A DNA stretch of 64,000 nucleotides, taken from contig CM041200.1 of the NCBI GenBank assembly GCA_023078555.1, forward strand, positions 3,342,501 through 3,406,500. Reading direction: 5' to 3'. Within the stretch, counting starts at the first letter, position 1. Every line of letters starts with the position of its first letter. This stretch comes from Ulva prolifera. Taxonomy: Eukaryota > Chlorophyta > Ulvophyceae > Ulvales > Ulvaceae. Both the position numbers and the translations under genes were made by a program. This document shows, piece after piece, positions 3,001 to 45,250 of the stretch. The notes below the pieces were generated by a model. It had not been told where the DNA came from. It did not search any database and saw nothing but the letters and a program-made list of their open reading frames with translations.

Positions 3001-4270
3001 AAAGCCTTTTGTTTTGACCACCAACAACAAATCAAGGATGTTCACGTCGGCATCCCCAACTTGAAACAAGTAAATATGGCATGATATGCACAGTTGATAG
3101 AAGCTTAAGCCGGCTTCTCGACGCACCTGCCGCCATGACAGAATGTGGCCCACACACCCGCCAACACAAAGGCCCCGATGGCGATGCCATGAGCACGGTC
3201 GGTGTAAAATTGAGGAGTTCTTTCGGGCTCCCCAACAAATGAACACGCAACCGAAACCCACGTCAACAAAGTCCCGCTTCGTAATTGCCAAATCATCGCG
3301 ATCCAGGTGAACCTGCACCAATCACGACACATCCACACCATTTACATGCATCAACGGGCAACTTCACCCCTCATCAAAGTTTGTACAGACCAAAAGACAA
3401 GAGCAAACACACCTGAAGATGAAAGGTACCATAGTACACGCGACAACAAAGTCATGCGGCAAAGTGCTTGTCAAGATTGCCAAGGTAATACTGACCACGT
3501 AATGGGTTGTAGTCAATCCGGCATCGATGCTTTGCAAGCACCCTAAGGCCACACCAAGGGCAGCAAGCGGTTCAAACGCAGCCACACACCACATGAACGG
3601 TGGAAAGAAGAATCTGCACATGCGGTGTCAAATCAAACATGTGATTTTGACCTTCACGTAGCCAAGCGAACTATACAAAACGACATGTGCACATCACATA
3701 CTGCATGAGCCTGCAATATTAGGGCATGCCGTACCCGTATGTGACAGCGATGATGACAGCTGCAATGAGTTTCGCCACTTGCAGTATGAAACTGCATGGC
3801 AACCATGCGGTCCTGCAAGGACAGCGGGAAGTCACCCGGTGCCGTCGTTATGCAATCATCATGGATGACTTAATCACCATTGCGCATACAACACATGAAC
3901 GCAAAGCAACCCATGAAGGTTCAAGGTTGAGAAATGTTACACACCGATGGAAGCGCAGGCACAGCCATGCCACGAAAAGAGCCCGCATGTGTTGAGCCAT
4001 GTCTGACGTTCCGCCGTCCACAAGCGCAAGATAAATGATCAGCGGCAAGAAGCCGACACGGTTCACATCCCCATGCGAAGAGGCCAATGTCGCGACAAGC
4101 ATGCCCCACATTGCCGAGGATGGCCTGGCAGTGAAGACGTTGGCTTGGGGGTACGAGGCGGAGATGTCCACACGGTGACGCCACTTGCGCACGTCTGCAG
4201 CATGTTCGCCACGGAGACGGCGATCATCCCCAAGGCGCAAGCGTTGACCCGCTACCAACCTCCCTCGACG
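1..4270 (-). CDS. Gene A' : diverged paralogue of gene A, 3' part cut by window edge
   Basis: This is a spliced minus-strand gene. Exons supported by GT-AG sites, matched phases and protein similarity to gene A are: about 4270-3945, 3613-3413, 3312-3127, 2962-2712, 2405-2117, 1954-1456, 1187-888, 526-252 and about 150 to beyond base 1. The first three encode hydrophobic membrane segments, and 2962-2712 a Cys/His-rich stretch. Exon 2405-2117 is very acidic (runs of D and E), and the next three are a conserved core with exactly the lengths of gene A (499, 300 and 275 nt). Introns do not align with gene A while exons do, so the reading frames are real. It has one pair of internal membrane exons where gene A has two. 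At the last visible exon I find no AG acceptor where gene A has one, so it may be a pseudogene. Function unknown. The 5' start is not resolved. Confidence 0.68.
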
Positions 4271-5611
4271 ACATACCGAACTACACATTAAGGGGAAGGT
4301 CAGGCACAGATCTATCAATGGGAAGCGCATGCCCCTTTCGAGCTCCCATGCAGGCTTCGTCTAGTGGTTGTCGAGCTTTTCAGCGACGCCCCGCCACGGA
4401 TCTGGCGCCGCCGAGGCCTCCAAACATTCTGATTCAACCATATGCACTATATACCTCTTGGACACGAGATCGCGAAGGATACCGCAACGTCACCTCTTGC
4501 GCCTTGCCCGCCAACATCGTGTCAACAGTGTGTCTAGAACTGCCGTACGGTGTGCACATGCTCTATTCCTGTGAAGATCCGGTTAACATATGGGCTAAAT
4601 GATGCCGTGAGTATTGTGCAGTGCGTATGTTGTGTCATGTACGCCATCATGCCACGCAGGTTTAGTGCAGCTATCTGTCCTGCCTTTGCATCGGCATCTC
4701 TTTTTGCGAGGTGCCTCTTCGACGTCACCAAAACATGATGTTGTCCCTAACTATATTCCAAGGATTGTTGAGCAGTGCTTCGTTGATTGGTGTTGCATTT
4801 ATGGTGGCACAGGGGTGACTGGGCACACGCATACCCAGCCGGCTGCAGGTTTTCGGGGTGGTACACGAGCACATACTTGTGTGTATATTAATTGCTCCTT
4901 ATCATGGTCACATAATCTAAGTCTAGCTAGAAAGGACTTGCTCCGTTCTTTCTATTGATATGACTCTTGTTTCGATCTGATTTGTCATCAAATTGCATCA
5001 ATGGCACCAAGTCAACATCTGAATTGATCAATTGCGTCACACATCAATGCCCCTTGGTCCATCACAGCTGCAACTTCATCCCAAGGTGCCTAAAGGCGAT
5101 GAAAAACCTGTGCAAATGATCAAATGCGCAAACGTTCTCTAGTTGATAATTTACTGCATGTTTGTGTTTTGCTTGGGTCCGGAATATATGATGTACCGAC
5201 ATACGTGGAATATTCCCATATACCGGGTACATTTCCTCATTTATATACCGCAGAACCTGGCTTACCTACATTACACGGGAAGAACTCGCTCGGATCTTCC
5301 TGTTGATACAACTCGTATTCCGATACGGATTGTCATCGCTTTGCATCAATAGACTAAGACAAAATAGCGTTCAGCTGGACCTCGGCAGGTTTTGTATTGA
5401 TTAATTATCACATGGTAATTGCCCTTGGTCCAACACTGGACTGTGTTGGACTGTGTTGGATACTTGGAAACTTCGTTCCCAAGCATCGCCGTTCGGTACG
5501 TGGGTGCCGGTGGTGTCGCTGGAGCGACCGAACCAAATTCATACATCTGCGACTACTTGCATTGTCGGCAACGATTGATTTATTTCGGCAGTTCCGTGGA
5601 TGCAGCCGGAC
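4271..5611. other. Gap without recognised gene; holds a degenerate duplication
   Basis: I see no supported gene. Segments 4925-5070 and 5276-5432 are diverged copies of each other (aaggacttgctccgttcttt against agaactcgctcggatcttcc, both followed by ttgatac or ttgatat motifs, ttgcatcaat, and ending in cccttggtcc). A short tandem (gactgtgttg twice) lies near 5440. Confidence 0.5.
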
Positions 5612-8443
5612 AGAGGCATTCACGGAGTTTCGTGCACCTCGTCCGTTCCTACATCCGCCCATCGAGAACACCATCCACGCAGCTCCTCCCGGGCTGGCAG
5701 GAGCGCAAACCGGTCCAGGTGAACGATTTGCGTGGCTGTAATGGTGCGCCGAGCGATTAAGCCATTTCTATGTGGCCGTCGCATCAATGACACCGTGTCC
5801 GCTAAAACAATACCACTCGGTGTGATGGGATTCCAACACATGTGAATGAATACATCCGCAGCAACATTTCAATACAGCTCTGGTCTCTGTTCCGATTCCG
5901 GGGGCTGCGGTACCTCGGTGTTACCTCATGCTCGTCCTCTCCCTTCGTTCGCGACGAGGGCCTGCAAGGAACCACGCTCTGTTTGAACCCACCCTTGCGA
6001 AACACCTACATGCGACGGCACGCAGGCTACCGTGTGTGGGTGTGTGTCTATGCGTGTGGAGCGTGTGCGTGGTTGAGCAATGGATGTCGCTCATGACTGA
6101 TGAAGCGCACCGCGCCAAGCAGGCATAGCCCAGTCCGACCGCCAGCCACAACAGCAACTTCACCAGGAGGTACAGCAGCAATGGCGACGTGCCATCTGCC
6201 CTACCTAAGCTGGGCCACGCCATGCTTGCCAATAGCAACTCAGTAACTCAGTATCAGTCCGCCTAGCTGCCTGCCGTTCCGTGCACTCAGCGTCGCGGAC
6301 GCTGTTCTGGTCGCAGTGGAAGCCGGCATGCCTGGATACGTGCTCCAGAGCACGCACAGCAGACACAACTCTACTGTAAAGGTGACGTCAGGTGCTGCTG
6401 CCGTTTCTCAGATATCCTCGAGCACCGCGCTGCGACAGGGCCACCAGGCTCTGGAGCATCGTCCCGTGCCGTTGTGCCATTCACCACGCCTTCTCACCGG
6501 CACTTTGTTGTACTGACACTTCACTGACAATTGTTGCGACGTCCGTGTGCACGCTGCTCCGCCCAGCAGCTTGTCCAGGTGTTGCACGGGCTCCGTTCCG
6601 CGACACAGCGGCCCGCAGCTAGCCGCGACGCGACCCCCGGCTTGACAAACATGCAGCCCTCTCTTGCGAGGGCGTTGTCCGCGTGCTCGCGCCGGCTAGC
6701 TGCCACGCCCGTGCCACGGTGGACTGCACCGCACACGGAGCCAGTTCGTGCTGTTCCACCGCTGATCACGCGCACATGCGGCGAGCGACGCCTGGTTCAA
6801 GGCGATGCCTGTGACATACGACAACACATGTGCGTGTGTCGCCACCTGCGTGGGCGTGGAGCCCTCCGCGGGCGAGCCATCCGCACCACAGCGGTACGCT
6901 GTCCTCAGGCGCCCCGACGCCCCGTGCCGTGCATGAACGGACATACATACATCAGTGGGCTGTTTCCATCGCAATGTGTCTGCTCCGCCGATGCTGATGG
7001 CGATCCTCATGCCAGTGCACAAGAGGATGCCTATAGCTGGTGTCTGCAGTTCGTGGTAACCGGCATCTGTGCTCACTGCATTAGCATGTGGTGAGGCTTT
7101 TGGAAGCGCTTCATGACGTGTGGTTTCCATTGCCGTGGCTAGGCTTGGTTGTGTAGTCCAGTGCCCGCTGGGAGCTCCTCTGCAAAGGGCCTGAATGCCA
7201 ATGCTGATGTGGAGCTCTCTGCCACGGGCTGTGCTTGGGAGCCCCGTTGAAGGTTGTCATGTTTGATTTCTGAGGACATATGTGGCTTTGTGCAGTGGTG
7301 AGTGTGCTGCAGGGGTGCCATCACCACAGTGTTCTATTGCCTGCCTCATGCAAGACCACCTGCGGTACCGCTGCAGCGCTCACGTGCAAGATGTAGGTGT
7401 GGTGAGCGTTGTTGTAGCATAGTGGTGAGAATGCTTGCATCAGAGTTGTGGGTGGCAAGCCAGCTAGAGAGACCGACCGCCCATTCTTAATCTGCGTGGG
7501 CCTGCACAGGAGTTGCAGCAAGTTGGCTCACCAAGGGGTGAGCAACCAGGATGAGCGACGGGCTGAGGACATGTGAATTTGAAGAAACGAGCCCTAAATG
7601 GAGCGCGGATTGGCCTCGCAGGTGGTGTAGTTCCTGCTGTTTTCATGGATGTCGCTGTGGTGCGGAACGGGCATGTTTTGGCAATGTTATGGGTGCGTAT
7701 GCATGTGAGGCATCACGACGAAACATCTGTAGTTTGTCCCACGGTGGCCACGGAGCTCCAGTCGGAGTAGCCCGAGTTGTGTAAAAATTCCTCAACGGTG
7801 CTCAGATGCGACGAGCTGTCCATGCCGAGATGCTGTCAATTGCTGATCCGCCTTCATGCACACTGCTTTGATTTTCCGCATGCCACACACTCAGGGTCTC
7901 AACCCGATAGCAACACGGGATGGCAACACACCTAGTGTCAAACTTGATACTGTGTACACCAAGATACCGGAGAACGCTTGCCCAAAACTGGTTTGTAGCT
8001 TTTGCTACGCAATTTTCTGTTTACGTTGTTTCACCTGATAAACCTGTGCACCTGCATAAACGTGTAGTGCTGAGCGGTGAACAGATGAAGCCTGGTGCAG
8101 TGGTTCAGCATACACCGGTGCCAACGCGCCAGCAACATCGGTGCTAGAGTGGCACATCGGCTGAATAAATGTGGACATGAGTGGCTTTCATCTTGTGTCT
8201 GGGACTGTATGGCTGTGGACGACAACTGTGCACCAGAATTGTTGCACAGCCGGTCACAATGTGGACGTACCAGCTACAGATAAGTATCGCTCGTCATGCT
8301 TCGTCAGCATTGCGATCGCGTATACACAGCCACCTATCAGAGCTCCCCAGGGCGTCCCAGAAGCACGTCGACGCTATGTCGAGCTGAAGGCCCCGTGCCT
8401 CTGCTGTGCTGATGGCCGGTGTGGCCACCGCGGGGCCGCGCCG
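5612..8443. repeat. 2.8-kb duplicated block D, left copy
   Basis: This block matches 25538-28374 and 48946-51782 with about a dozen substitutions and one 5-bp insertion (gcccg, near 7893 on the left copy). On its right it runs straight into the satellite array. On its left the match stops abruptly at 5612. Both strands hold modest open frames. The most protein-like is minus 6238-5921, which has a strongly hydrophobic stretch (LLLYLLVKLLLWLAVGLGY). With copies this similar, conservation says nothing about coding, so I call no gene. Confidence 0.9.
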
Positions 8444-9802
8444 CCACGCACCGACGAAAAACGCCCGCCCCCGCGAGAACGCCAGCCCCCGGGCGGCCGC
8501 CGCGGGGTTGGGGGCGCGCACCGACGGTTATTAGTAAAAAAATCGGCCACGCACCGACGAAAAACGCCCGCCCCCGCGAGAACGCCAGCCCCCGGCCGGT
8601 CGCCGCGGGGTTGGGGGCGCGCACCGACGGTTATTAGTAAAAAAATCGGCCACGCACCGACGAAAAACGCCCGCCCCCGCGAGAACGCCAGCCCCCGGCC
8701 GGTCGCCGCGGGGTTGGGGGCGCGCACCGACGGTTATGTATGGTTGTGGACGACAACTGTGCACCAGAATTGTTGCACAGCCGGTCATAATGTGGACGTA
8801 CCAGCTACAGATAAGTATCGCTCGTCATGCTTCGTCAGCATTGCGATCGCGTATACACAGCCACCTATCAGAGCTCCCCAGGGCGTCCCAGAAGCACGTC
8901 GACGCTATGTCGAGCTGAAGGCCCCGTGCCTCTGCTGTGCTGATGGCCGGTGTGGCCACCGCGGGGCCGCGCCGCCACGCACCGACGAAAAACGCCCGCC
9001 CCCGCGAGAACGCCAGCCCCCGGCCGGTCGCCGCGGGGTTGGGGGCGCGCACCGACGGTTATTAGTAAAAAAATCGGGCACGCACCGACGAAAAACGCCC
9101 GCCCCCGCGAGAACGCCAGCCACCGGCCGGTCGCCGCGGGGTTGGGGGCGCGCACCGACGGTTATTAGTAAAAAAATCGGCCACGCACCGGCGAAAAACG
9201 CCCGCCCCCGCGAGAACGCCAGCCCCCGGCCGGTCGCCGCGGGGTTGGGGGCGCGTACCGACGGTTATGTATGGTTGTGGACGACAACTGTGCACCAGAA
9301 TTGTTGCACAGCCGGTCACAATGTGGACGTACCAGCTACAGATAAGTATCGCTCGTCATGCTTCGTCAGCATTGCGATCGCGTATACACAGCCGCCTATC
9401 AGAGCTACCCAGGGCGTCCCAGAAGCACGTCGACGCTATGTCGAGCTGAAGGCCCCGTGCCTCTGCTGTGCTGATGGCCGGTGTGGCCATCGCGGGGCCG
9501 CGCCGCCACGCACCGACGAAAAACGCCCGCCGCCCCCGAAACCCCTCCCCCCGGCGGCCGCGGCCGGTCGCCGCGGGGTTGGGGGCGCGCACCGACGGTT
9601 ATTAGTAAAAAAATCGGCCACGCACCGACGAAAAACGCCCGCCCCCGCGAGAACGCCAGCCCCCGGCCGGTCGCCGCGGGGTTGGGGGCGCGTACCGACG
9701 GTTATTAGTAAAAAAATTGGCCACGCACCGACGAAAAACGCCCGCCCCCGCGAGAACGCCAGCCCCCGGCCGGTCGCCGCGGGGTTGGGGGCGCGCACCG
9801 AC
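8210..9802. repeat. 531-bp higher-order repeat, three copies
   Basis: The segment tggctgtggacgacaactgt at 8210 recurs at 8741 and 9272, exactly 531 bp apart. Each period holds about 230 bp matching the end of block D plus three 103-bp satellite units; the third copy has a variant GC-rich unit near 9530. Because 531 is divisible by three, one plus-strand frame stays open across all three (8171-9814). I read this as a by-product of period and GC content, not as a gene. Confidence 0.9.
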
Positions 9803-11280
9803 GGTTTTCAGTAAAAAAATCGGCCACGCACCGACGAAAAACGCCCGCCCCCGCGAGAACGCCAGCCCCCGGCCGGTCGCGGCCGGTCGTCGCGGGGTTG
9901 GGGGCGCGCACCGACGGTTATTATTGGCCACAGGGGGCCCCCGCGCGCGCCATGCACCGACGACAAACCTCCCCTCACCACCCCCCGGCGCCCCGCGCCG
10001 GCCCGGGCCGGTCGCCGCGGTTTTGATATCGCGTACCGACGGTTATTAGTAAAAAAATCGGCCACGCACCGACGAAAAACGCCCGCCCCCGCGAGAACGC
10101 CAGCCCCCGGGCGGCCGCGGCCGGTCGCCGCGGGGTTGGGGGCGCGCACCGACGGTTATTAGTAAAAAAATCGGCCACGCACCGACGAAAAACGCCCGCC
10201 CCCGCGAGAACGCTAGCCCCCGGCCGGTCGCCGCGGGGTTGGGGGCGCGCACCGACGGTTATTAGTAAAAAAAACGGCCACGCACCGACGAAAAACGCCC
10301 GCCCCCGCGAGAACGCCAGCCCCCGGCCGGTCGCCGCGGGGTTGGGGGCGCGCACCGACGGTTATTAGTAAAAAAATCGGCCACGCACCGACGCAAAACG
10401 CCCGCCCCCGCGAGAACGCCAGCCCCCGGCCGGTCGCCGCGGGGTTGGGGGCGCGCACCGACGGTTATTATTGACCACAGGGGGCCCCCGCGCGCGCCAT
10501 GCACCGACGACAAACCTCCCCTCACCCCCCCCCCGGCGCCCCGCGCCGGCCCGGGCCGGTCGCCGCGGTTTTGATATCGCGTACCGACGGTTATTAGTAA
10601 AAAAATCGGCCACGCACCGACGAAAAACGCCCGCCCCCGCGAGAACGCCAGCCCCCGGCCGGTCGCCGCGGGGTTGGGGGCGCGTACCGACGGTTATTAG
10701 TAAAAAACTCGGCCACGCACCGACGAAAAACGCCCGCCCCCGCAAAAACGCCAGCCCCCGGCCGGTCGCCGCGGGGTTGGGGGCGCGCACCGACGGTTAT
10801 TAGTAAAAAAATCGGCCACGCACCGACGAAAAACGCCCGCCCCCGCGAGAACGCCAGCCCCCGGGCGGCCGCGGCCGGTCGCCGCGGGGTTGGGGGCGCG
10901 CACCGACGGTTATTAGTAAAAAAATCGGCCACGCACCGACGAAAAACGCCCGCCCCCGCGAGAACGCTAGCCCCTGGCCGGTCGCCGCGGGGTTGGGGGC
11001 GCGTACCGACGGATATTATCAATCACGTCGACGCTATGTCAATCTTCCGATTCCATGCACGGCCACGCGCCGGTGACGAACGCCCCCCGCCCCCGAAACC
11101 CCTCCCCCGGCGGCCGCGGCCGGCCGCGGCCGGTCGCCGCGGGGTTGGGGGCGCGCACCGCCGGTTATTAGTAAAAAAATCGGCCACGCACCGACGAAAG
11201 ACGCCCGCCCCCGCGAGGACGCCAGCCCGCGGCCGGTCGCCGCGGGGTTGGGGGCACGCACCGACGGTTATTATTATTAT
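8444..11280. repeat. GC-rich satellite array, about 103-bp unit
   Basis: About twenty units. Each has a GC-rich part of roughly 75 bp (cgcccgcccccgcgagaacg to ggttgggggcgcgc) and an A/T-rich spacer gttattagtaaaaaaatcgg. Standard spacing is 103 bp (for example 8451, 8554, 8657). Two longer variants at about 9927-10048 and 10474-10590 contain ccacagggggcccccgcgcg and tttgatatcg. The last units near 11080 carry the spacer tcacgtcgacgctatgtcaatc seen in the unit copies. Two 240-bp stretches of block-D-like sequence (8730-8972 and 9262-9504) interrupt it. No gene inferred. Confidence 0.93.
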
Positions 11281-11525: not shown

Positions 11526-14500
11526 TCAAACCAAAACAGAAACACAACCTTCCTGTAGGTGCGCACCGTATGCACAGACGCGAGAGTTGCATGGACCGCC
11601 GCGCAGCGCGTTGGCGACGATGCCGTGAGGAACACCGTATGGCACACGACCTTGCGCTGCGTTGGTAGCCACCTGTGCCGTCCTCTCGTCACGTTTCTGT
11701 TGCTTCTCACCTTCGGGCATGATGCGGTAGGCGACGCGTTTGGCATACGCGTACGCAGCCATAGCATCGGTTTGGGTGGCTCGGCGCGGGCGTATCGTGG
11801 CGAGCTCCGAGCTTGGGAGGCACGACATTTGGAGGTGGTCTTGCAGTGTCCCTACATCCATGGACGATCGACATACTATTGGATTATTAATATTGCACGC
11901 TGGCTCGGCATAGCCCTAGACGTTGCATGCAATGTATGTGTATATGTCTTATTCAATGCGGTTGCACAGTGTACGGCTACGCTGGGACGATCGGGATCAC
12001 CAAGCAACATGACGCATGTCTTCACAAGGCATTGGATGTGTCGTGACATGCACTGTCAAGAAAATCTTACCTGCGCCTTTGTACAGAGCTCCCGGAACGA
12101 CCGCTAAAACGTATAGGTCCAATGGCGAAGCCCCGAGGAGACACGTAGCTATGCATGTCAAGCATGCTCCTCCGAGGCATGTGCCGGGTGTGATGGGTTT
12201 TTGGCACTGATCGCCGCGACAGGTCTCTTTGGATTGCTTCACCGGTGCAGCTATCTCGACAACCTCCGCCACCGAGGTGATCTCCTCGCAAGGGGCATCG
12301 TCACATTGTTCACAACCGTCCGTCTCGTTGCCGTCAGAGTCCACAATCACGACGGCTGGTTCTGATGACATCGCAATGCCATCGGGCGCGTCAGCCAATT
12401 GGAGGCAATCATCAGAAGCACTGTGTGTTGGGACATCTTCGGGCACGGTGTCAGCACTTGGGGTGCTACGAGGAACCGCTGGGACATGATCGGCGTGACG
12501 GCTGCACTCGCCAACGGTGGTCCTTGCGCATGACACAACAGGGTGCAATCCCAACCCAGGCGGCTCCACCACGACGTTTGGCGGCACGGCCGGCTGCTTG
12601 GCCAAGAAATCTGACCGTTGTGCACGCATGCCAACGCATGATGCACACATGCCGTGCTCCACTCCCGCGAGCAAACGCATGGACGCACACCCTGGACACC
12701 ACCATCGCAAAGCCCCTCCGCGAACCACCACCCGATTGCGGTGCTGCTGACACATGCCGCTCGCGTGGCCGTCATGGAAACGCGTGCCGCACGTGTTGGT
12801 AGAGCCGTGTGGTGAAAAGCAACATTGCTGCGCTTTCCGTTTGTCCGAGGTCTCGGCGGCCGTGGTAGTATCGGAGGTCTTGGAGGAGTCCCCAGGCACG
12901 GGCGGATCCGACGATCCGATGGCGAGCTCTTCACACACCCTCAACATGACGGTGTGTGCGCATGCATTCGCCGAGCACATGTGCTTGGTGACCTCTGCAC
13001 ACACCTTTGCGGCAAACTTTGCCGCTCGGGACGTCTTCAACCCTTGTGTACCCTTGGCCCTGCATGATGGAGAGCACCGGCCGTCACTGCTGAAGCCGTA
13101 CGCCGCGCGCCACGCCCGGCACCGGAAGCAGTACATCCATAGCAATGGGCCCCCTTCTTCTCCCTCACTCGCAAGCACCGAGTGCAGATGGTGTTCACAG
13201 ACTTGACTCTTGTCGTCATGTTGGTCATGCGGACACCCGTGCACCAGACACAGCTTTGATGGGGCGGCATCGTCCCCCGCACGAGGCTTCCGACGGCCAC
13301 CTCGCCCACGCACCGGCGGGTCGGCCCCCACATCAATGCGCCCGCTGTGCCAGCGCAGCCACTCGTGGCCGGACGGCGCCCGCTCGCCGAAAGCATGCAC
13401 GATGTTCTCGCCTCGCTGTCGCTTCGCCTTGGCAAGCCGGCCTTCCGTACAGGTCGGTCGGTGCTCCTCGCCTTCTGCCCACGCACGGACTGCTTTGAAG
13501 CAGCAGCATTGCGAGCACCAACGCACTTGCCGCCGCAAATGGGGGGTGATCTCCCAAATTGCTCGCCCCCGATGATTCGGGCACAGCTGTGACTTGTGGG
13601 GCTTGCCGCCGTCTTCATCGACGCACTTGCCGTCACAACCATGTATGCGGCATGCGGTGACATCGCGCACGACGCGATTGCCATCAGGCGGGAAGGCGTG
13701 GTCGCCACGGTAGGTGTACATCGCTGGCTCGTCACGCGGAGCTGTCGGCAATGACGCGCTGATGTCCTCTTCGGATAAGTGGATGCAGCGGTTAGGTGCT
13801 TGCGACTCTGTGCCCGCTTTTGCACGTTTGTCGACATACAAACACCAAATACAGTGGTGTGAGTGATCGGCATCGTCCTTGCAGCCACGAGAGCGGATGG
13901 TGAATTGATGAGGTCTTTTGAAGTTGCGGCAATTGAAACAAAGCCGGCATTTGACCCCCTCGGCATCGATCAATTCATTGGCCTGCATCACAATGAGTAT
14001 GATGAGAGCATATGTTGGCTTGTACGAAGCTTCTAGTACTATTCTAGTATTACTCAAAAAGAATAATCTATAATGATTATTACTAATATTCTTTTTATTC
14101 TTACTATTATAATGATCACTACGCTTATGCTTAATCATAATCATCATTAATTTTATTATCATTATTATGAATAAAAGTTTTACAAAATTTTCATGTGCCA
14201 CCGCATACATATCCGCATGCAAATATGATGCACGTTTCACTCAAATACAACCGGTCACACACACACACACACGTAAACCCAAACACAAACTCACATATCA
14301 CCATGCATCAACCATCACAGAAACATTTCTATTTATGGAAGTGCGTACAGACTTCGTGTAAGCCTTCTTACATACATACATGCGTATGAGTAAACAACAC
14401 ATACGCTGACTAATGTGGCTCCAGACATGTGCATCCATGCATGTGGTAACACTTTGGGACCATACCTTGCTGTGTTTGTGGCACAAACCCTCCATGGTCA

Positions 14501-17500
14501 TCACGCTTTTTGTGCAACCACGCACATCGCACTCGGTCTTGGACGACACGTCAACTCTGCCTCTGTCATCGACGCAGATGGACCCCAGCGTTGGCGCACA
14601 AGCGCCAACCGCGGCGCTTTGTTGAGCGCTCGGACGCGCCGCCACCGGAATGCGCCCGTCACATGCGCGATCATCACCCTTGTGTCTGGCGCAAACGTTC
14701 CCGAGACCTTCAAACTTGAGCAATCGAATAAGCGCCTTGCACTTGTTGCACCATCTCTTGAACACTCCCACGCCATCGGAACCCGTCTGGTCGGTCAGGA
14801 TGACGCGCCCTTTTGCATGCTTTTGGCACATGTGAGCCGCGCGGTATGACGCGGACGGCCCGATGTCGGCGTTGCACAGCACCACGCTTCCGTCGTCGTT
14901 GACATCGACGATGACGTTGCACATGTCCGTTGTGCGTTGGCCTCCATACAATGCTGAGGCGCGAGCTGCGGATGGCAGCAACGTGACGTCCGTCGCGCGA
15001 GCTGCACAAACGCACACACACACTATTACAATACATAGCCACCAAGTGCCCTACTGCACAATGATATGTCAAGTGCGCACAATCTGTCGTGTCATATGAT
15101 TTCACAGAATGATCAAGCCTCCCATACATGGAGATCCATGCAGAGTGCCACTGTGTACGCACATTGTACACGCCATCTATGGCAAAAAACACCCATTGCA
15201 AAATTTCCACAAAACAGACGTTCATTGTTTCATTCAAGAGAGCATACCAAGACGTAAGACCTCGATCCAGTTTGCGAGCCCATGGTCGTCGTGCGCAAGC
15301 TGCCGCATGCAATTTGCAAAGACTTCGCCTCCGCAAAACCTCTGGAAATCCCACATGTTCAAAGCTTCTGGACGCACAGGCATCAACGGGTGTGCGCACA
15401 TGGCAAGGAACGCCTTCCTGTGTTTCAGGATTGACAACATGCCCGTCCGTGTTGCCTGCAAAAGCCTGCCAATGAGGGAAGATCGATTACCATACATAAC
15501 CTAGGATTAGTCAACTAAGAAAGTGCTTGATTTGCAAGGCTAGGGTTGCACACCATGCCGCAACACCCAAAGAGCAATCCCTTCGTGGCCAACTTAAGAT
15601 GAGCACACGATTCAAAGCAATCAGTGGTGTGGACACCAAAGGGCACACACTGATGAAAAGCCACACTGGTTTGAAAGCCAAAGTTGAACAAATATGATCA
15701 ATCAACTACATGAGGTTCCGGTATCAATTCGCACACCTGAAATGTTTGATCGCCATATTTCATATTTGCAGTTTGCTCCCCATGGTATGTTGACGAAGCC
15801 CGTGCCTTTAGTGCCTGCCCCACCACGGCAGCATACGACGCATCTTCCTTGCCGAGCATCGAGTCCATGGACATCTCCAGACCCGTGCGACAAATGTCCA
15901 AAACATCAGCAACATCATCACACGAGTCTCGCATGCTCTCCGGTCGAGATGTATCCTTCATCGATGCTGCAAGCTCTTTTCGAGTTTGTCCCGCCGCAGT
16001 CTCGAGGACGTCGCCCAGTTCAAACTCGGGGTGGCTTCTGGAAAGGTGCTTCAACCACTCCGTTTGCACGGTCTCGGAATGTCCAATGAAGCGACAAAAC
16101 GCTTGCAACTCCTCTGCATGCAAGGTACGTTCACACTCGCCATCAATTCAAGATCTCCGAGTCCGATGCAATATTGTCAACACCGCCTCCTCCGTTGACT
16201 AGCTAGGCAACACCGATCGAGAGATGCAAGCATCATATGCGACGTGTTGTAGACACTAGGGTACAGTCACCATTGTGTGATACATTGCAACCACCTCATG
16301 TTTTGGCACCGCGATGCATGGCGTACCGGGGGCATCCGCAGGTGGAGCATGTTTGAGGCGGCCCCACAGCTTCAAGGCGTTGGGCGCGCGCGTAAACATC
16401 TTGCGGATCATCGCCCACCCGTACTGAAGGATGGTCCCGGGTGTTTCAGCATTATGAGATGCGTAGGCGCGTTGCATCAATGCCCTACTTGCTTGGTCAG
16501 CATCGCACAGCAGACGTTTTCCTTCGACGGTCTTCAAGAATAGTGCGGACACCGCAGCATTCATGTAGTTTGCATGTTGTTGAGGTGCTTCTTGGCGCAC
16601 TATTCGCGCCGCCGCGACCGCGTGTGCAACCAAGCCTTTGGTTAGGCTTGACGATCCACAAATGTCACGTGTAGCCTACAAGCACGAAAGGTCCCCAATG
16701 TTGATGCTTCATTTTGCGACCCACGTGGCGACAAAGCTATACATGGTTCATACATATACCAAGGCTTGTGATGTCAGGTGCAGTGTGAATTAGACAGGTC
16801 AGCCACACTGGTGATCACATTTTGGAAAAATAGCCAATTTGCTCAACATTGAAATGCATGACACCGTAGAGACGCACCACATGAGAGTACAGGGAGTTGA
16901 AGAATGCCGGGTGCAAACAGTCACTCTTGAAGGTGGACGCATTTGGGGACCACTGTCCGGATAGAGAGATGTGAATATCATTCTGGCATTTGGTGTCATC
17001 GACTTGCGAGATCTTCATGCGATTGAAGACCATGCCGGTTCGAAGGTCACGTGCGGTGACTTTCATGTTCCCCGCCGCCCCGAATGCTCGGCAATACAAG
17101 CTGAAGGATTCTGGGCTCGAGGGCGTGCCACGCAAAGGCACCATTTCATGCCAGCGGCAAAATACAAACCTGAAACATGGCAAAATAATGAGTGCAGACC
17201 CAACAATAAGATCACAAAGATTGGTGGAACACGGATTATTCTCAACGTTCTTCACTGTGGATATCAATTCGCAACACAATCACGAAATCGCGAACTTGAT
17301 GACCTTCCTTTGATACATAACACTATGCGTAACATAACCATGGTCAACGGCAACTATCTTCAAAAACAATACCGACCGTGGACCCGCAGCATAGCAACAC
17401 TACGTATCGCATCAACAATTATTGCAATTAGTGCCCAAAACTAAGTTGACACGGCACACTTGAAAACGATGGTGATATATACATGATGTTATCTAACCAT

Positions 17501-20500
17501 ATGAAATACATAGTACGTGAATCTTGCAATGCTACAATATTTCGACATCCTGGACATACCGGTACATGTACGCACCGGTGTTTCATCCGATCGGCCTCGA
17601 CAGGGTCCCTCTTCTTCACCAACGAACGCAAAGTGAACGGTTCGCCAAGGGCCAGACCTTTCAAGTCGCCGAGCTCGATCAAGCCCTGTCGCATTGCCAA
17701 CATCAGCAGTTGGCTTCCAACGCATGCGATGCTGGCGCGCCAATCATCCTCTTCGACCACACACCCGCTCGGATCAACCGCAAATGTCTTCTGCCCAAAT
17801 TGATTGGGTGCTTTGTCCCAAGGGATGGGGCTTGTAAAGCCAAAGGCAACCTGCATCGCCACGAGTATTTAAGCACAAACCTCTAGTTACACACGATGGC
17901 CCGCTGCGCAAATGCTTTTATATATATCATACTGTGATGGAAACATCAACATCATACACCGGCATGCATACCCGGCGCACATACAACACTGTGCCAATGC
18001 ATCTCGGTACATCAGTGCATCGCAAGCAACAAAGCTTTCGCAACACCATCGCGAAAGCAGCGCACCTCCACGTCATTGGTCTCTTTGTTGTACACCGCAG
18101 TGGGGATGAACTCGATCTGATCCCATGTCCAAGCCGCAAAGACAGGGTTGCGGCAACCACATAGGGACTTCAACGCGGCAACAATGAGCCCATAAATGGG
18201 TGTGATACCACCAGCTCGTGCGTTCTCCGCACACCTCATGATATCACCCTGCTGCATCGGGGTGGGTTTGTCCACGATGTTGGCCCCCTGTGCTTTCATG
18301 GACATCACATGATGTTGGTACCACATTCGGTACTTGTCGAAAATCAAAGCATCTTCGAGCCGAACCTGCACCAGAGTGCCGTGAAAACGTCAGGGCACTT
18401 GGTGGTACATTACATGTCGAAATATTACCCAAATGACAGACAAACAAATACGAACGTGCCCTGATGCGGCAAGTGTATTTTCGTGCCATCAACCTCAAGC
18501 CTGAGCATACAAAGGGTAAGGAACATACTCGATCGCTGGGGTTAGCGACATTCCGACACTGATCCACGGTGAAGCACTTGACCGCTAGCATGAGCGCAAA
18601 CTTGTATTGATGTAACGTTGCAAGTTTCTTGACATGTCCAGACCACTTCAAAAGAGCAAGGGTGTTGGAGAACAGCAGTGCGGGACAATCTTGGAATGTC
18701 TTGATCACAGCGCTCATGGGAACCTCCCCTTCGGGGTGTCCCTCCAACTTCGATTTGATGGCCTTGCAAGACTTTCCATACTCACCCGGCTCATCACACC
18801 CGGACAAGACCGCCGCGATGTACGCCGTGACAAACCGATAGAATGTCGCGCCAATCCCTTTTTGGGTCTTCTCCACGCGAGCCGGGAATGTGCGCCACCA
18901 GCAACCCCCTTCGTCAATCCATTTTGCGATGTCGGTGTGGAATTGTGACTCAACGATCGTCTGCAGCATGCTCGGTTGCACAGCATCTTTCGCAACTTGT
19001 GTGGAAGTCATAAACGCGGTTTTCACCCTGCACGGTGCGGCAGCCATGTTTGAAAGTACGCCCGGTTATCCGCAATGCGACACAATGGGTTACAATCTTG
19101 ACCCTACATGACATGATAACGATCGAGCAAAAACGCACTGGCCATACCACTCGGGGCCCAGGATTTTTGAAATCTCTGGGTCCTGAGTCCATTCGTCGTC
19201 CGAGTCCTCAGCCTCGTCTTCATGCATCACGCCTTCTTCGCCCGCATCAACATGTTTCGCCATCTCTTCATCATCCGAAGCAACGAGATCGACTACATCA
19301 TGCATGTCGGCACTTGGAGCACGTTTGTGTGCGCATTTGGGGGCATCACAATCCATGTCATCACCATCTGAACTGGATTGTGGCTGGTACTCGGAAACAT
19401 CATCAGTACTCCCTGTTGACGTCACAAGTGGTGTTGGAAGAAGTTATACACGAAAATCGAGCCTCACGCAATAACAGAATGCGAAAACTCGCGTATAAAA
19501 ATATGCATGCACGCAAGATCGATGCATGGCAGCTGAACAAGATCCAAAACATGGTGAATATCAAATGATATTATAAACAATATGACAACTCACGGTGGTG
19601 GATTTCCATCTCTCTATCCAAATTGGCTTCGCACCTCCACCACGCATCCGCATCATCGACCCAATCTGATCAATTCTCGGCAAGCACAAAGGTTCCTCTT
19701 GCAACGCACGAAACAGATCGTTCAGTTTCGTCAAACGTGGGTCATCGGGTGAGATGCAATCGAAGCTGTCCTGACGCGGCATGCACTCCGGATCATCACA
19801 ATGGCACGCCTCACCGATCTCACCGGGATGTGTCGGCTTTGCGTGTGGCTCCGCTTCCAAAGGGCGCTCCAACTGTTCGGTGTGCATGCAATGTGTGTGT
19901 CCAGCGCAACAGCATGATTCGCCATGATCATCGGCAGGTTGTGTTGCACATGTGCTGAGGCGATGGATACATATGCGCCTACATGGAACTCATCATGTAA
20001 GTTTATGTACACTTCAACAGAAATCACCACCGTGACCAAAGGGTGCAATCATCACAACTACACGAGCCACAAAATGCCGCGGCGAATCACACAGCATTGC
20101 CACACCAAAAAAATCACCATACGGGAGCACACCCAATGATCTCGACGAGGATAGCCAAGGTTGCCGCAATCGTCTGCGCCCCCATGATGATATCAAGTGC
20201 ATATGGGAACCCGCACAGAGTCCCCAATGCACCCAATACAGCAGGGCAAACAATGGGTATCATTGCAGTGTGTTCATGAATGAAGGTTGCGCGGACCACG
20301 GCGCGTGTGTACCTGAATTTATGCATAATTTTGTTGTCACCATTGCAACCCAACAACGGTTGCAGCGACACACATTTGTTGGATGTGTCGACAATGGATG
20401 TATCAAAAACGGAACACACCCCCAGTACTTGCGTGCAAGGAGACAAACCACAAACGCCGTGCAGAATCCGATCGTTGTCAGTGCAGCAGACACGCCTTCG

Positions 20501-21720
20501 CCGTTCAACCCGCCATGCAGCTGATGGATGGCTGCACCAATGGCAACACACGGTGCGTAGGCCAAGGACACCTTCACGTCGTGTCGGCTCGATGTGTCCC
20601 CGGTCATCCTCGCAAGACTGCACCGATGCCACAACTATCACCCCACCACATGAAGAGCTGCACAAGTTTGGAGCCACACACGCGTCTTGGCGACCTATAC
20701 ACATGGCGGTGTTCTCGGCGGTTGAGAGATGCATACCGGTAGATGCTAACGCATCCATGCGTCCAACACAGCACGGGCACTGCGATCAAGATATGGTGTG
20801 CCACGCTGCACAGTTTGTCCGTATCAATGGCAGCCTCCATCATCCGGTCGCGCACGCCCAATGTTGTTGCCAACACCCGTAACGACCACCACACTGTTCG
20901 GCCGACCGCACGAGCAGCCATGGAAACACACCTGCACACGAGTGACACAATGAATGAAAACGACATGTCTAAACACATGCAATGGTAGCCCCACCTCTAA
21001 CACAAACACCTCTGTGAACGTGATCACTCATCATGATTACACTACAATCGCATGCATCCAAAACAACACTAGCATTGATGTATGCAAGAAGTGAGAGTGC
21101 CCGCACATGCACAAACAGGCGAACAAGACGTTCATTGTCGCCATCAGATATTCCAACATCACGTGACTCAGTAGCATTGCAGTGCAAAGGCCAATGACAC
21201 ACGCCCCGTCGCATTCATGTCCACCGGAATCTTTCAATCGCAACCATGGCATCGCCGCCCCCAGTGCAACCCATGGAGCCCATGTCAAGAACGCCCGTAA
21301 AGTGGGCTTGGCTACAATGCGAACGGTCAAGGACGCAAGCCTGCAAGCATAATCCAGTTAAGCTCGTATGAGCCACAGCTCCAACATGGACAGCCGGCCA
21401 AACACATGCACGGCTTATGCATTGCAAATGATGGAGCATACCCATGCAAGCGCATGCAGAGCCATGTCACGCCAATTGCATAGAAGAGAGTCGTGAGCCC
21501 TGTGTCCCCATCGACAAGGCCAAGATACACCAAAGCCGGTAAAATTCCGACACGCATGACGTCTCGAGGGGGGCACATCAACATAGCCACAAGGATCAAT
21601 GAAACATTGACCCACGGGGCAGTTGGATGCATGCATCCACTGCACGCCGACAAATCGGAGAGATCCAAGCGATGACGCCATTTACGCCCTCTTGCAGCTC
21701 GTGCACCAAGCAGGCGCCGG
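11526..21720 (-). CDS. Gene A, copy 1: giant membrane / zinc-cluster protein, function unknown
   Basis: Exons on the minus strand (first to last): about 21720-21442, 21340-21107, 20931-20770, 20617-20420, 20312-20133, 19978-19635, 19412-19139, 19027-18529, 18365-18066, 17850-17576, 17169-16878, 16675-16271, 16111-15737, 15455-15248, 15001-14466, 13982-12071 and 11851-11526 (stop). Phases match at every join, and donors are mostly GTGCGT, GTGCGC, GTATGT, GTATGC or GTGTGT. The product is about 2,270 aa: membrane module, Cys/His stretch ending in a GGG turn, acidic linker, unrecognised core of about 750 aa, then a Cys/His-rich half with SBP-like clusters. A hydrophobic stretch lies just before the end of exon 13982-12071. 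The core and membrane exons are conserved in A', which supports the model. The start codon, the join 16271/16111 (acceptor ending GAG) and donor 20770 are the weakest points. The last exon could instead splice on into a gene B; in copy 1 no gene B follows. Confidence 0.75.
12071..15001 (-). other. SBP-like zinc-cluster region of gene A (copy 1)
   Basis: Exons 15001-14466 and 13982-12071 encode at least five Cys/His clusters. A typical one runs C-x4-C, about 11 residues, C-x2-H, a spacer, then C-x2-C and one or two further Cys (CLVHGC ... VCEHH ... YCFRC ... GRC). Others are CRIHGC ... LCPNH ... WCSQC; CCFSPHG ... MCQQH ... WCPGC; MCQKH ... WCNKC; and CDVRGC ... LCHKH. This order matches the SBP domain (C-x4-C ... 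C-x2-H, then C-x2-C-x3-H ... C) of green plants and algae. The His of the second site is often replaced, so this is a diverged or convergent version. Role in DNA binding is inference only. Confidence 0.55.
14030..14165. other. AT-rich tract inside an intron of gene A, copy 1
   Basis: About 135 bp of almost pure A+T, rich in att, ata and taat and partly self-complementary, in an otherwise GC-balanced gene. It sits in the intron between exons 15001-14466 and 13982-12071, the longest resolved intron of the gene (483 bp). A (CA)n run follows at about 14259-14276 and is two bases shorter in copies 2 and 3. Confidence 0.7.
15248..19412 (-). other. Acidic linker and conserved core of gene A (copy 1)
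   Basis: Exon 19412-19139 encodes a Ser/Asp/Glu-rich linker ending in a GPEWY motif shared with A'. The following exons form a core conserved in A' as far as the window allows. Landmarks are KTAFMT and AVQPSML, WWRTFP..VEKTQ, RFVTAYIAAV, ALLKW.GHVKKL, a GANIVDKPTPMQQ.DI block, GGITP.YG with LKSLCGCRNPVFAAW, VAFGFTSPIPWDKAPN, and FGAAGNMKV. Identity to A' looks to be around two thirds. I recognise no catalytic motif: no nucleotide-binding loop, no DDE, no tyrosine-recombinase or HUH signature. It may be a structural or protein-binding region. Confidence 0.6.
19635..21720 (-). other. Membrane module of gene A (copy 1), built of phase 2-2 exons
   Basis: Exons 21340-21107, 20931-20770, 20617-20420 and 20312-20133 each begin and end in phase 2 and each encode one or two hydrophobic stretches. 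The second and fourth membrane exons resemble each other (APWVALGAAM with IGLCTAMLL against APCVAIGAAI with IGFCTAFVV). The third and fifth are more loosely alike (a RAV.R motif, then a hydrophobic run). The first begins with a basic stretch containing RKWRHR, also present in A'. I count roughly eight to ten possible membrane spans, but topology cannot be fixed by eye. Exon 19978-19635 is not hydrophobic; it holds a Cys/His cluster around ESCCCAGHTHC and a second around CHCDDPEC. Confidence 0.65.
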
Positions 21721-21842
21721 CGGTCTCCACAATGCCGACGTCGACCGGCCACCAGCGGGTCGACATATGTATCATCACTGCACAATTGTTGTGAAAGTCT
21801 TTTGTTGACTACCCGCAGCCCGTGGCGATTGCACAAAAAAAA

Positions 21843-22612: not shown

Positions 22613-23380
22613 CTTGCTCTGCACCTTCCCGAGCGAATTGCAGTCAATCTTGGAAAGTGAGTAAGGCATCGAGTGTTCGTCCACCCCAACCCAAAACACT
22701 CAACGATGCCTACACAACGCCTATACACCTGAAATGGATACTTTCAGTATCAACAAGCATCACGCGAGCAAGGGCTTTATGAATACCTAATTGTTTTTGT
22801 GATCACATATTTCATCGCGTCTCTTTCACCGAAAACGTTCATTATACCTTTATCCTATACTTCTACACCCTATGTATAAGAATATATGCCCTTATACCGG
22901 TATATGGAACCCAATGTACCCCTTGGCGCCAGCCCTACTTAAAATGAGTGCAAAAATTCGTGGCCTGAACCGCCACGCAAAGTTTCCTGAATGGCAATGC
23001 GGTGATTGGTGAATGCCCGTGAAAGATGTTGCGACACTGCATCCATGTCCAACGTGTGCAACAATGCGCGTACTCGCAGTGCCGTCGACAATACTGTGCA
23101 ACATAAGCAAGTGGCATTCCATATGGCAATGCGGCGCCCGCTGTATGCCCGTGAAAGAGCCGACTTCGATCCATCCAAATACATCGCAGGCAACACAATA
23201 CAACGTATGCAACATCATATGCGGCGCTGCCGTGCCCAGTGCAACTGATTACCTCGCCGATTCCCCGTGCCCTCCTTCTTTGGTGGCGGGCTGCTTCCAA
23301 ACGAACCTTGTCAAGGCCTCTCTCCAAGGAAACCTACACACTACTACCGCGGTTGTCGGCAGTGTCGTTTGGCTGCCTGT
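22613..23380. other. Gap without recognised gene, unit copy 1
   Basis: It holds an AT-rich patch around 22780-22920 and a weak duplication about 131 bp apart (atggcaatgcgg ... tgcccgtgaaag near 22991 and 23122). The same stretch recurs at 46021-46788. No coding signal that I trust. Confidence 0.5.
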
Positions 23381-24107
23381 CTAAAAGCACGAGATGGGCC
23401 GCGCTATGTACAACCGGCCGAGCACCACCCGTGGTGGAAGCCACGCCTGTCGCAGCGGCCATAGCAGTCTACGCAACACACACCAGTGCCATCGCTGGTG
23501 CTTACTGATTACTCGTGCGCAAGCTCGAAGGCATGGGTCGGAGACGGTGAAGGGAGCTGCCACCGCAACCAACCTGTACCGGGCCTTGGGCAGCCCTCCG
23601 CGCACGAGCGACATCGCACAGACAGCGAGCTTTGCAATCCTTTGATATGGCATCGCGGCAGCGGCTGGTCCGTGCGGCGCGCACCCTTGTGGAACGCACC
23701 CTCGCGCGAGCGTGGCGCACAGCGACACGACGCAGTCCAGGGCGACCAGCATCCAGACGAACAGTTCCACGCTACCGAAACATGATACCAGAACCTCCTC
23801 CGCTATCCGGCCAAAGCCGGACAGCAAGTCCAGTATGAACATGGCTGCGCTCACGGGTGTAGATGTATCTGTGTACTAGCGTGCCATCAGGGCGACACTG
23901 ACGCTGTTTTGGCTGTGAAACGCTGCCTGCGCCGTGTTTACACCCGGCGCAGAAACGGCCTTGGCAGGATACTTCATATCCACAATGCATCAGGCGCTGT
24001 TGTAGCGTTTCCCAGACATCCTCGCCCCGCAGCGTGCCGGAGCGTCGGCCCTGCCTCCCCATCCCCAGCGACAGCCGCACCCTCCAGGGGCCTGCTAGCG
24101 CGATCAA
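23381..24107 (-). CDS. Possible small membrane-protein exons, unit copy 1
   Basis: Minus frame 23854-23381 opens with two strongly hydrophobic stretches (around MFILDLLSGFGRI and FVWMLVALDCVVSLCATL) and then turns basic. A short upstream frame ends near 23955 with GEDVWETLQQRLMHCGYE. An AG acceptor lies just before the hydrophobic exon, but I could not match its phase to a good donor upstream. No family recognised. A plus-strand frame (23267-23464) competes for the same bases, so this is tentative. Confidence 0.25.
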
Positions 24108-25380
24108 TGCTCCAGATCTGCATCATCTAACGTCCCAGTCCGTGTCCGTAGCCCGGACAAGCCCGGCGCCTCTGTGTGAACAGCGCCTGCACGCTGACAG
24201 CACCAGCGGGGCTGCTCGTGGCAGCACAGATCCATGCCAGCCCCATCGATTCCATCCCTCGATCCCACTGGCGGTGCCTGCGGTGATCTGTAGACGCGGG
24301 TCGCCTCGAGCAGCGCCGGTGTCCGCACATGTGCAACGACGCTGCGTCAGCCCTGTCTCCGAAGGCCCTGCGCCAGCCTGCCACACCATCGGCCCGCTAC
24401 CGACATCCACCGCTCCATCTCTGATCCATTCAATGTTCCGATCGTTGTTCGCGGCCGCGCGTGCCCGGCTCCTCTGTGTGAACAGCGCCTGCACGCTGAC
24501 AGCACCAGCGGGGCTGCCCGTGGCAGCACACATCCATGCCAGCCCCATCGATTCCATCCCTCGATCCCACTGGCGGTGCCTGCGGTGCTATGTAGACACG
24601 GGTCGCCTCGCAGCGGCGCAGGTGCCCGCACATGTGCAACGACACCGCGCCAGCCCCGTCTCCACAGGCCCTGCGACAGCCTCGAGCTCCGACGGCCCGC
24701 TAGCACAGTCCACTGCGCCAGATCCGCATCCTCCAGTGTCCTGGTTCGAGTCAGCGGCCGGCTGCGCCCCGCGCCTCTCTGCGAGCATCGCCTGCACGCT
24801 TAAAGCACCACCTTGGCTGCCACCCGCAGCGCGCATCCTGAATACCCCCGCTTCTGACACGATCTGCTATCCTTTTGGTCTTCTGTGCCGCGGTTCCCGC
24901 TTCAAGTTGGGACAGCATCGCGCGGCTCACGCTCGACCAATGACCCGCCACAGGCCTGTCTCCGAAGGCCCTGCGCCAGCCTGCCACACCATCTGCCTGC
25001 TACCGAATTCCACTGCTCCATTTCCAATTCATCCAATGTTCCAGTCGTTGTTCGCGGCCGCGCATGCCCGGCGCCTCTCTGCGAGCATCTGACCGCTGTG
25101 GCCCTGTCTCCAGGCCAGGCGACGCCCACCTGCACCAGCGGCCACCTGTCCCGACTCCAGCCTTCGATTTCCAACCATCCGATCCTGCCAGTCCGTGGTC
25201 GTGCGGCCCGCGACGACCTCGCTGCCGCACCCACCGCCTGGCAGTGCTCGGTTGGAACGATGTCTGCCTGTCGCACCGCTCCACGCGCGCCAGCTCGCCA
25301 TACCACCCCAAAAGCGTTGGCTTGCATTCGTCATGGCGTCGTGCACGGCGAAATAGCGTGTACGTCGCGCTCGCCGTCGG
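24060..25380. repeat. 302-bp degenerate tandem repeat, unit copy 1
   Basis: A segment with gcccggcgcctctgtgtgaa at 24161 recurs near 24463, 24765 and 25066, about 302 bp apart, with a partial copy before the first. The copies have diverged by substitutions, so they are older than the 23.4-kb duplication. Both strands stay partly open (plus 24034-25092, several minus frames), which I attribute to GC content and period. Confidence 0.8.
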
Positions 25381-25403
25381 TGCTGTGCGGTGACGCGGAC
25401 GCG

Positions 25404-25528
25404 TGACCACAGGGGGCCCCCGCGCGCGCCATGCACCGACGAAAAACCTCCCCTCACCCCCCCCCGGCGCCCCGCGCCGGCCCGGGCCGGTCGCCGCGGT
25501 TTTGATATCGCGTACCGACAAAATAGGA
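25404..25528. repeat. Single GC-rich unit (long variant), unit copy 1
   Basis: It matches the two long variants inside the satellite array (9927-10048 and 10474-10590): ccacagggggcccccgcgcg, the caccgacg core, a GC-rich body, then tttgatatcgcgtaccgac. It sits exactly at the left edge of block D. Confidence 0.88.
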
Positions 25529-28695: not shown

Positions 28696-29749
28696 CACAG
28701 CGGGTGGCCCTGCGGTGGGCTGCACCGTCGCACAGCCATGCGCGGGCAGTGTCACAGCAGCCCCTTCGTAAGTCTACAGGCGCGCGAAACAGGTCGAGGG
28801 ATATCTCAGCTACCACCATGCCGAGCCTCGTTTGTAGCTGTGGCGCGACTTCTCCGCTGCGAGGAGAGGGGTGTGTGCGCCAACACATGCCACCCGCCAG
28901 CACACTGTGTTTCATTGACCTTCGCTTGGCGGTGAGGTAAATTCCGAAACTTCACAGCCTGTCCACACCTGTAGGAGAGGGCTTCGCATAAATCATGTTC
29001 TATGGCAGCCTCTCAGGGCACACATGCCAACAACACTAGACGCAGCAGCAGTCGTAGCTGGCTTGTTGCGCCGATCGGAGCCACCCACCTCTGCCAAATC
29101 AGCAAGCTTTGCCCATCAGACCTGTCAGTTCTGTCTTGTCTTGCCCTGTGCGTGTGTGGAAGTTGCTCACTGCCACATCAATGACGCAAGCGCTGTCGTG
29201 TTTAGTCTGCCGCTCGGTACTTGTTGTATTCGACCTTGATCACAGCCGGAGGCACACGTACTGTTTTCCTACCAGATTGACAGCTATTATTACAGCTGTG
29301 GTCAGTCCGCGTAAGTGATGGACTGGTGTGGAATAATTGCCCCTTGCAGATTTTGCAATAGACTTGAGAAGGATTTCACGCACATTCAGATCGGGGAGAT
29401 GGTGCTGGCATTGGGCACCCAATGAGCTTCATGCCCAGCGCATTTCTGTTCATCCCAGTGATGCACATGTAAGTGCACACAGGCTACGGAACCTGACTCC
29501 CACAGCATGAGCAAGCGCATGGCGACACGAATCTAAGTACTACGAATCAGTATCAGGTGTGTTGCGTGTTATAGACCCAAACCCTGCAGCAACCTCATGA
29601 GTGTGTGACCATTCGCCCACATGCAATCCCAAACACACGTTGCATGGTTCCACACGATACGGTCGGACCCCAATTTCAATACAACACAACCACCACACAG
29701 CATCACCAAGTTGCGTGATCTACAAGACATCACTCTGCCGAGCACAGAC
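28696..29749. other. Gap without recognised gene, unit copy 1
   Basis: I see no supported gene, RNA or repeat. The equivalent stretch is 52104-53158 and differs by one extra A near 52446. Confidence 0.5.
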
Positions 29750-45130: not shown

Positions 45131-45250
45131 GTCTCCACAATGCCGACGTCGACCGGCCACCAGCGGGTCGACATATGTATCATCACTGCACAATTGTTGT
45201 GAAAGTCTTTTGTTGACTACCCGCAGCCCGTGGCGATTGCACAAAAAAAA

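Follow-up and report, generated by a model that had tools for sequence, protein, structure and literature searches.

A putative tyrosine recombinase gene in clustered repeats of the green alga Ulva prolifera

A 64,000-nucleotide stretch of the Ulva prolifera genome (GenBank assembly GCA_023078555.1, contig CM041200.1, positions 3,342,501 to 3,406,500; hereafter the window) carries a giant minus-strand gene, gene A, whose motifs suggest that its core is most likely a very divergent tyrosine recombinase (YR). The explanation we favour, and judge probable, is that a mobile element of this green alga, with several genes including a YR, has gene A as its recombinase; that element is probably large, repeated and selfish. 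The window corresponds to C5:3342501-3406500 in a genome of 88.9 Mb and 44 contigs. Genome searches scored the best candidates only, so that all genome-wide counts given below are lower bounds.

Gene A and its recombinase-like core

Gene A is a real gene. It reads as 16 minus-strand exons (from 21842-21442 to 13982-11997) that together hold 2,215 codons without an internal stop, joined by GT donors (gtgcgn, gtatgn, gtgtgn and gtacgc) and AG acceptors of matching phase. The junctions were picked by hand among alternatives, and the start codon is not fixed, leaving the 5′ end open; several acceptors and donors lie at identical places in homologues. The original prediction, made from the letters of the window, had described an unbroken chain from a membrane region through an acidic linker and a core to a C-terminal half with SBP-like zinc clusters. 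This architecture is borne out, as is the claim that a diverged relative, A′, keeps the same exon design where it can be read, namely in exon 1 and from the end of exon 7 through exons 8–10 into the first part of exon 11, at 39–80% identity. A′ is incomplete because the sequence directly before the window, C5:3335001-3342500, is given as N. The parts of the two genes are as follows.

11997..21842, minus strand: gene A copy 1, 16-exon chain defined by GT-AG junctions, phases and the lack of an internal stop; 2,215 codons to the stop
19635..21842, minus strand: exons 1–6, hydrophobic (membrane) module with linker exon 6, from hydropathy and phases; exon 1 is kept in A′
19139..19412, minus strand: exon 7, acidic linker, from the gene model and the comparison with A′
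18529..19027, minus strand: exon 8, helical domain (AlphaFold2) that precedes the catalytic part and is a candidate core-binding domain
18066..18365, minus strand: exon 9, Box I (GCRNPVFAAWTWDQIEF), its Arg placed on XerD R148 by hhalign in 12 of 12 subsets
17576..17850, minus strand: exon 10, central part of the presumed catalytic domain, kept in homologues
16878..17169, minus strand: exon 11, Box II (RDLRTG) and Box III (GQWS), with the position of the Tyr, which is occupied by a Cys here; from the motif alignment
15248..16675, minus strand: exons 12–14, from the gene model; exon 14 is recognisable in the C1 homologue L004
14466..15001, minus strand: exon 15, zinc cluster 1, which among the clusters of the window copy matches SBP best (25.3 bits against a cut-off of 27)
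11997..13982, minus strand: exon 16, further SBP-like clusters of Cys and His (C/H; 13664-13419, 13259-13041 and 12836-12618), from the C/H pattern and Pfam SBP
1..4400, minus strand: gene A′, diverged relative with exon 1 and parts of exons 7–11 recognisable

Exons 8–11 are under purifying selection. Between A and A′, 404 codons of these exons give a non-synonymous rate (dN) of 0.18 and a synonymous rate (dS) of 2.0, the latter near saturation, and thus a dN/dS of 0.09; the ratio is 0.16 between two copies on C1 and 0.14 for C2 versus C6.

Homologues of the core are numerous in this genome, with at least 66 matches to an exon 8 query and at least 149 to a catalytic query from C1. Across the family, three conserved motifs resemble the boxes of a YR: Box I as L..L.G.R[ND]P....A[WL].W..[IV].F, Box II as [RKH]-x-x-R-x-G, and Box III as QWS followed by a Tyr. 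The second Arg of Box II and the Q-W-S are present in all seven aligned rows and the Tyr in six, missing only from the first copy of the window. Among the readable copies of the array on C5 to which the window belongs, six of seven likewise have the Tyr, with a Cys at this position in the window's first copy.

These motifs were complemented by a profile comparison in which eight family members were aligned by hhalign with 61 YRs, comprising XerC, XerD, FimB and FimE of E. coli and 57 integrases from IMG/VR (out of 80 loci, those with a frame of more than 150 amino acids (aa), an HxLR[HR] motif and no X). The best local alignment lies over Box I and scores 29.97 at a pairwise E of 0.0021. None of 100 column shuffles reached this score (best 25.91), and the column-reversed profile and a profile of exon 8 scored 17.07 and 15.75, respectively. 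When the references were reduced to random subsets of XerD plus 20 others, the invariant Box I Arg of the family fell on Arg148 of XerD in 12 of 12 cases (scores 20.7–33.7), and leaving out any single family member gave scores of 26.7–31.3. Exon 11 aligned alone places its RDLR on the HVLR of XerD, a weak alignment (score 14.45) that two of 60 shuffles also reached. Because of the motifs and the profile alignment, the core is no longer unplaceable, as it had been called in the original prediction; they point to a YR.

Gene order and genomic clusters

The C-terminal half of gene A contains several C/H clusters, as counted by eye. Cluster 1 matches the Pfam SBP model (PF03110) at 21.3 bits within its open reading frame (ORF) and at 25.3 bits when trimmed, with the cut-off at 27; of the other clusters in the window copy, the second scores 13.5 bits and two more have no match to SBP. 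Two matches on C1 lie above the cut-off (27.9 and 27.4 bits), and one of them, L004, has exon 14-like sequence followed by cluster 1, in this order by eye. Genome-wide, 40 of 43 matches to the zinc half lie 2.3–4.4 kb downstream of a Box II–Tyr exon and on its strand, and recombinase and zinc clusters therefore form a conserved unit. The three zinc halves that depart from this arrangement are at C5:3421310, C3:2701712 and C13:52796; the 43 were counted from 52 rows, nine of which (six on C5, two on C2, one on C13) were excluded by hand as second exons of counted copies. An SBP-like cluster with long open frames, at 26.5–26.8 bits, also occurs in another protein family (L006, L007, L008 and C9:1052214).

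Downstream of gene A lies gene B.

29723..34640, minus strand: gene B region, with the Walker A motif GGPGCGKT in 33346-32552 and a motif VI-like ALYVASTRVRDMADL in 31671-30700; exon limits not settled

Gene B encodes a P-loop protein and probably an SF1 helicase, to judge from its motifs. Its P-loop matches AAA_19 at 23.2 bits (21.2 bits when spliced; cut-off 25.1) and a Dda-like PHROG weakly (E 0.59); a PDB search returned no match. By eye, its later motifs resemble those which we take to be typical of SF1/Pif1 helicases. After merging B matches less than 1 kb apart (38 to 32), 21 of the 32 lie downstream of A on its strand; the distance is 7.6–9.1 kb for 19 of these and shorter for the other two. 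In the controls, flipping the strands gave one of 32 and the reverse order none of 32. The 11 B matches that do not follow A in this way comprise five in the C1 cluster and those at C1:12.1, C3:2.71, C3:4.41, C6:5.87 and C6:7.79 Mb as well as on contig C39. The large element that the original prediction had raised is supported, with a recurring A–B pair. Among IMG/VR sequences, 29 pattern matches to gene A and three to the Walker exon of B were obtained, none of which was confirmed as a relative; scans with UvrD and DsbC, intended as controls, gave two loci and none, respectively, and no conclusion was drawn from them.

The membrane module, from its search matches, looks like the N-terminus of some copies only. 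Hydropathy gives five windows above a Kyte-Doolittle value of 1.6 in residues 181–402 and a sixth near the C-terminus (2165–2183), and the membrane exons are in phase with the rest of gene A. A genome search with these exons returned at least 35 matches: 33 on C5, one at C8:4.047 Mb and a weak one (E 1e-3) at C4:6.851 Mb. The latter two lie upstream of a core match on the same strand, that on C8 being itself weak (E 7.7e-4), and exons related to the module are present in the C4 copy L041. No match to the membrane part was found in the clusters on C1, C2 and C6 or at C4:1.06 Mb, where core and zinc half stay together, and homologues on C2 and C6 have, ahead of the core, an exon of another kind, a long open frame of 443–476 aa. 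The restriction of the matches to C5, C8 and, weakly, C4, together with this other exon, is the reason for regarding the module as a feature of some copies.

Copies of gene A are gathered in local clusters. Counting as anchors the Box II–Tyr rows among the 149 matches of the C1 catalytic query gives at least 58, distributed over C1:3.54-3.78 (10), C2:1.86-2.06 (5), C4:1.06-1.10 and 6.86 (3), C5:3.31-3.47 (8) and C6:1.80-1.84 and 7.61-7.76 Mb (8), with 23 on small unplaced contigs and a weak one on C8. No anchor was found on C3, C7, C9 or C10 among the matches listed; C3 has zinc and B matches and C7 one B match. The clusters span about 30–250 kb and consist of many near-identical copies plus diverged lineages, with 52–100% identity to the C1 query within C1 and about 28–64% elsewhere. 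Integration close to copies already in place, unequal exchange and a centromere-like region would each be compatible with such a distribution. The density of reverse transcriptase matches was tried as a marker of centromeres and gave no support, RVT_1 matches being spread genome-wide (best 150 of 452 candidates scored). Among the matches listed, C7:3.5-5.0 Mb is crowded with them.

The window itself is not single-copy: from position 11289 on it is part of a head-to-tail array with a period of 23,408–23,412 bp, whose units are 99.94% identical over 29.3 kb. The array spans about C5:3.31-3.48 Mb and includes both orientations, partial copies and inserted repeats. Its remaining features in the window are as follows.

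34699..64000, no strand: second and partial third array unit, 99.94% identical to 11289-40588 over 29.3 kb
8443..11018, no strand: 103-bp minisatellite, from its repeat pattern
22844..25528, no strand: repeat block whose right end (...ACCGACAAAATA(GGA)) adjoins five different sequences in different copies

The two copies in the window differ in the frame of the last exon of gene A, which runs to 747 aa in the first (11997-14240) and to 614 aa in the second (35410-37650), i.e. 133 codons shorter. The minisatellite is confined to the C5 cluster, all 74 matches of a 27-base pattern with up to three mismatches falling in C5:3.3336-3.4831 Mb. At window positions 25525-25538 and in several array copies, a common sequence end is joined to differing sequences, as if a 5′-truncated repeat had inserted repeatedly. 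The idea that the recombinase made the array at an attachment site, with its breakpoint at 25525-25529, was dropped because the left side is common and the right side varies from copy to copy, as would be expected where a truncated repeat has inserted rather than at an attachment site. Outside the window, one array copy is split by an insert (C5:3320246-3330095) with reverse transcriptase frames, gypsy-like by eye; the two flanking pieces of the copy overlap by 6 bp, resembling a target duplication. A reverse transcriptase match inside the array (C5:3326335, among the genome search matches listed) lies within this inserted element.

Competing explanations

The gene model, the conservation of the motifs, the purifying selection on exons 8–11, the order of YR, zinc half and B, and the clustering are all observed here. 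As for catalysis, mobility and the parts played by the zinc clusters, gene B and the membrane module, we infer a mobile element that might work as follows. Together, the helical domain and the catalytic domain (Arg – [Arg/Lys/His]xxArg – Trp – Tyr) would act on DNA, cutting and rejoining it via a covalent link to the Tyr. The SBP-like zinc clusters at the C-terminus would keep the enzyme bound to the ends of the element or to target DNA. Gene B, the putative SF1 helicase encoded downstream, may help to unwind or replicate the element, and local clusters of copies could arise through integration beside resident copies or through unequal exchange.

Several observations weigh against this explanation. 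The window's first copy lacks the Tyr and has a Cys instead, and the first position of Box II is Arg or Lys in six of the seven members that cover it, the usual His being found only in A′. With HMMER at E≤10, a YR family of Pfam was found in none of three and none of five members, a search that can miss remote members; searches of PHROGs and PDB sequences with the core gave no relevant match; and the probability that hhalign itself assigns is 13% for the full set and 0.8–25% in the subsets. The profile alignments stop short of Box III, whose QWS and Tyr are seen as a conserved motif only, and a forced global alignment (probability 1%) puts Boxes II and III out of register. Exon 8 has a sub-cut-off match to the viral capsid-barrel model PF22210 (13.5 bits, cut-off 27, E 0.075). 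Structure prediction lends the YR assignment no support either: the AlphaFold2 model of exon 8 is all helical (mean predicted local distance difference test (pLDDT) 75) with no informative fold match, and exon 11 modelled alone is of low confidence (pLDDT 49). At the level of the element, the copies lack the scattered distribution that free transposition would produce, and neither the ends of the element nor target duplications nor empty sites were defined.

A rival explanation is that gene A belongs to a domesticated, chromosome-bound YR family, that is, host proteins of YR-element ancestry that now bind the DNA of the clusters, possibly at centromeres as Cbf2/Ndc10 does in yeast. Clusters of about 30–250 kb with many near-identical copies would suit such a role, as would a 103-bp satellite that is restricted to the C5 cluster, and there are precedents: Cbf2, a centromere protein, is Crypton-derived (PMC3212892), and Zepp forms one cluster per chromosome in Coccomyxa (PMC8226300). 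However, domesticated Crypton YRs have lost their catalytic residues (PMC3212892), whereas Arg, Trp and Tyr are kept here in most copies; moreover, C4 and C6 each have two clusters, and C3, C7, C9 and C10 have no A anchor among the matches listed. We regard domestication as unlikely. The membrane-tethered regulator of the original prediction, in which the core would be no recombinase at all, appears quite improbable. It draws on membrane exons that match in phase and lie upstream of a core match on C5, C4:6.85 Mb and C8, but in the C1, C2, C6 and C4:1.06 Mb clusters core and zinc half occur together without a membrane match, and the YR motifs and profile alignment of the core count against it. 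It has become less likely because core and zinc half are what is conserved across clusters, the membrane module being restricted.

More improbable still is a viral origin, in which the copies would be what is left of an integrated DNA virus (polinton-like or larger) with genes for an integrase and a helicase. A YR-like integrase and a helicase-like gene do share one unit of 16–23 kb, and the weak exon 8 match to PF22210 (E 0.075) concerns a capsid model; against this stand the many introns, the absence of IMG/VR relatives of A or of the Walker exon of B, and the absence of any above-cut-off capsid or packaging match among the 20 chosen window ORFs scanned. Bearing on this possibility, a study of latent giant viruses of Ectocarpus (PMC13236599) reportedly mentions 'tyrosine recombinase' 37 times.

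Relation to known elements

The putative gene A element is best placed among YR-bearing elements as a new variant, in preference to assigning it to the Cryptons or the Starships. A mark of Cryptons is their short terminal direct repeats (4–6 bp). CryptonF combines a YR with a C-terminal GCR1_C DNA-binding domain (PMC3212892). Gene A shares the order of YR and C-terminal DNA-binding domain and would be expected to function in the manner of a Crypton, but differs in its SBP-like zinc clusters, its size (2,215 aa, 16 exons), the second gene B, the clustered arrays and a catalytic region that no Pfam model matches. GCR1_C was not matched in Pfam scans of most gene A exons, a statement that does not extend to exon 14, which was not scanned alone, and that comes from HMMER, which misses the YR too. 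Starships, found in fungi (Pezizomycotina), carry at their 5′ end a captain, a YR of the DUF3435 kind. Like the gene A element they are large DNA elements with a YR; the difference is that gene A resides in a green alga and that no cargo was seen. The captain model had no Pfam match at E≤10 in gene A members (HMMER only).

PAT-like DIRS elements also carry a YR. They have been reported in green algae (PMC8226300), and are YR-bearing elements of this lineage as the gene A element would be. DIRS-like elements combine the YR with a reverse transcriptase; no reverse transcriptase match was found in the 20 window ORFs scanned. The local, nested, chromosome-wise clusters of the long interspersed nuclear elements (LINEs) Zepp and ZeppL in green algae (PMC8226300) resemble the gene A family in that one element family forms local, chromosome-wise clusters. 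Zepp and ZeppL are, however, LINEs and not YR elements, and RVT_1 matches are widely spread in this genome (best 150 of 452). Compared with YRs of the Xer/Fim type, Box I is in register and Box II in register only in the exon 11 alignment, while the Box II His is mostly Arg or Lys in the family and 163 residues separate the Arg of Box I and Box II, versus 99 in XerD. SBP-box transcription factors of green plants, finally, share the C/H spacing of the gene A zinc clusters, but in gene A the clusters are degenerate, occur several times over and belong to a protein that resembles a recombinase. SBP matches at 60 and 62.5 bits are present in the genome as well. Strong SBP matches fit a green alga, SBP being a family of the green lineage; a search with PF02972 for signs of a cryptophyte origin gave no match, and neither did its controls. 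Judged by title and the opening of the abstract, none of the papers listed in the literature searches describes a green-algal element in which a YR goes with SBP-like clusters or a helicase.

It is conceivable, if rather doubtful, that these copies represent a separate class of giant, intron-rich green-algal YR elements with an SBP-like fusion, sometimes a membrane anchor and an SF1 helicase partner, whose clusters may be centromeres. Should true homology link the SBP-like clusters to the SBP box, elements of this kind could be the ancestors of the plant SBP transcription factors or could themselves have captured their clusters. To our knowledge, large eukaryotic YR elements are known mainly as fungal Starships. 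If our interpretation is true, a self-clustering, multi-gene YR element with plant-type zinc clusters would extend large YR elements to the green lineage and make a new system available for studying site-specific recombination in algae. It would also connect mobile elements, the cluster regions of green-algal genomes and the SBP DNA-binding domain in a way that can be tested.

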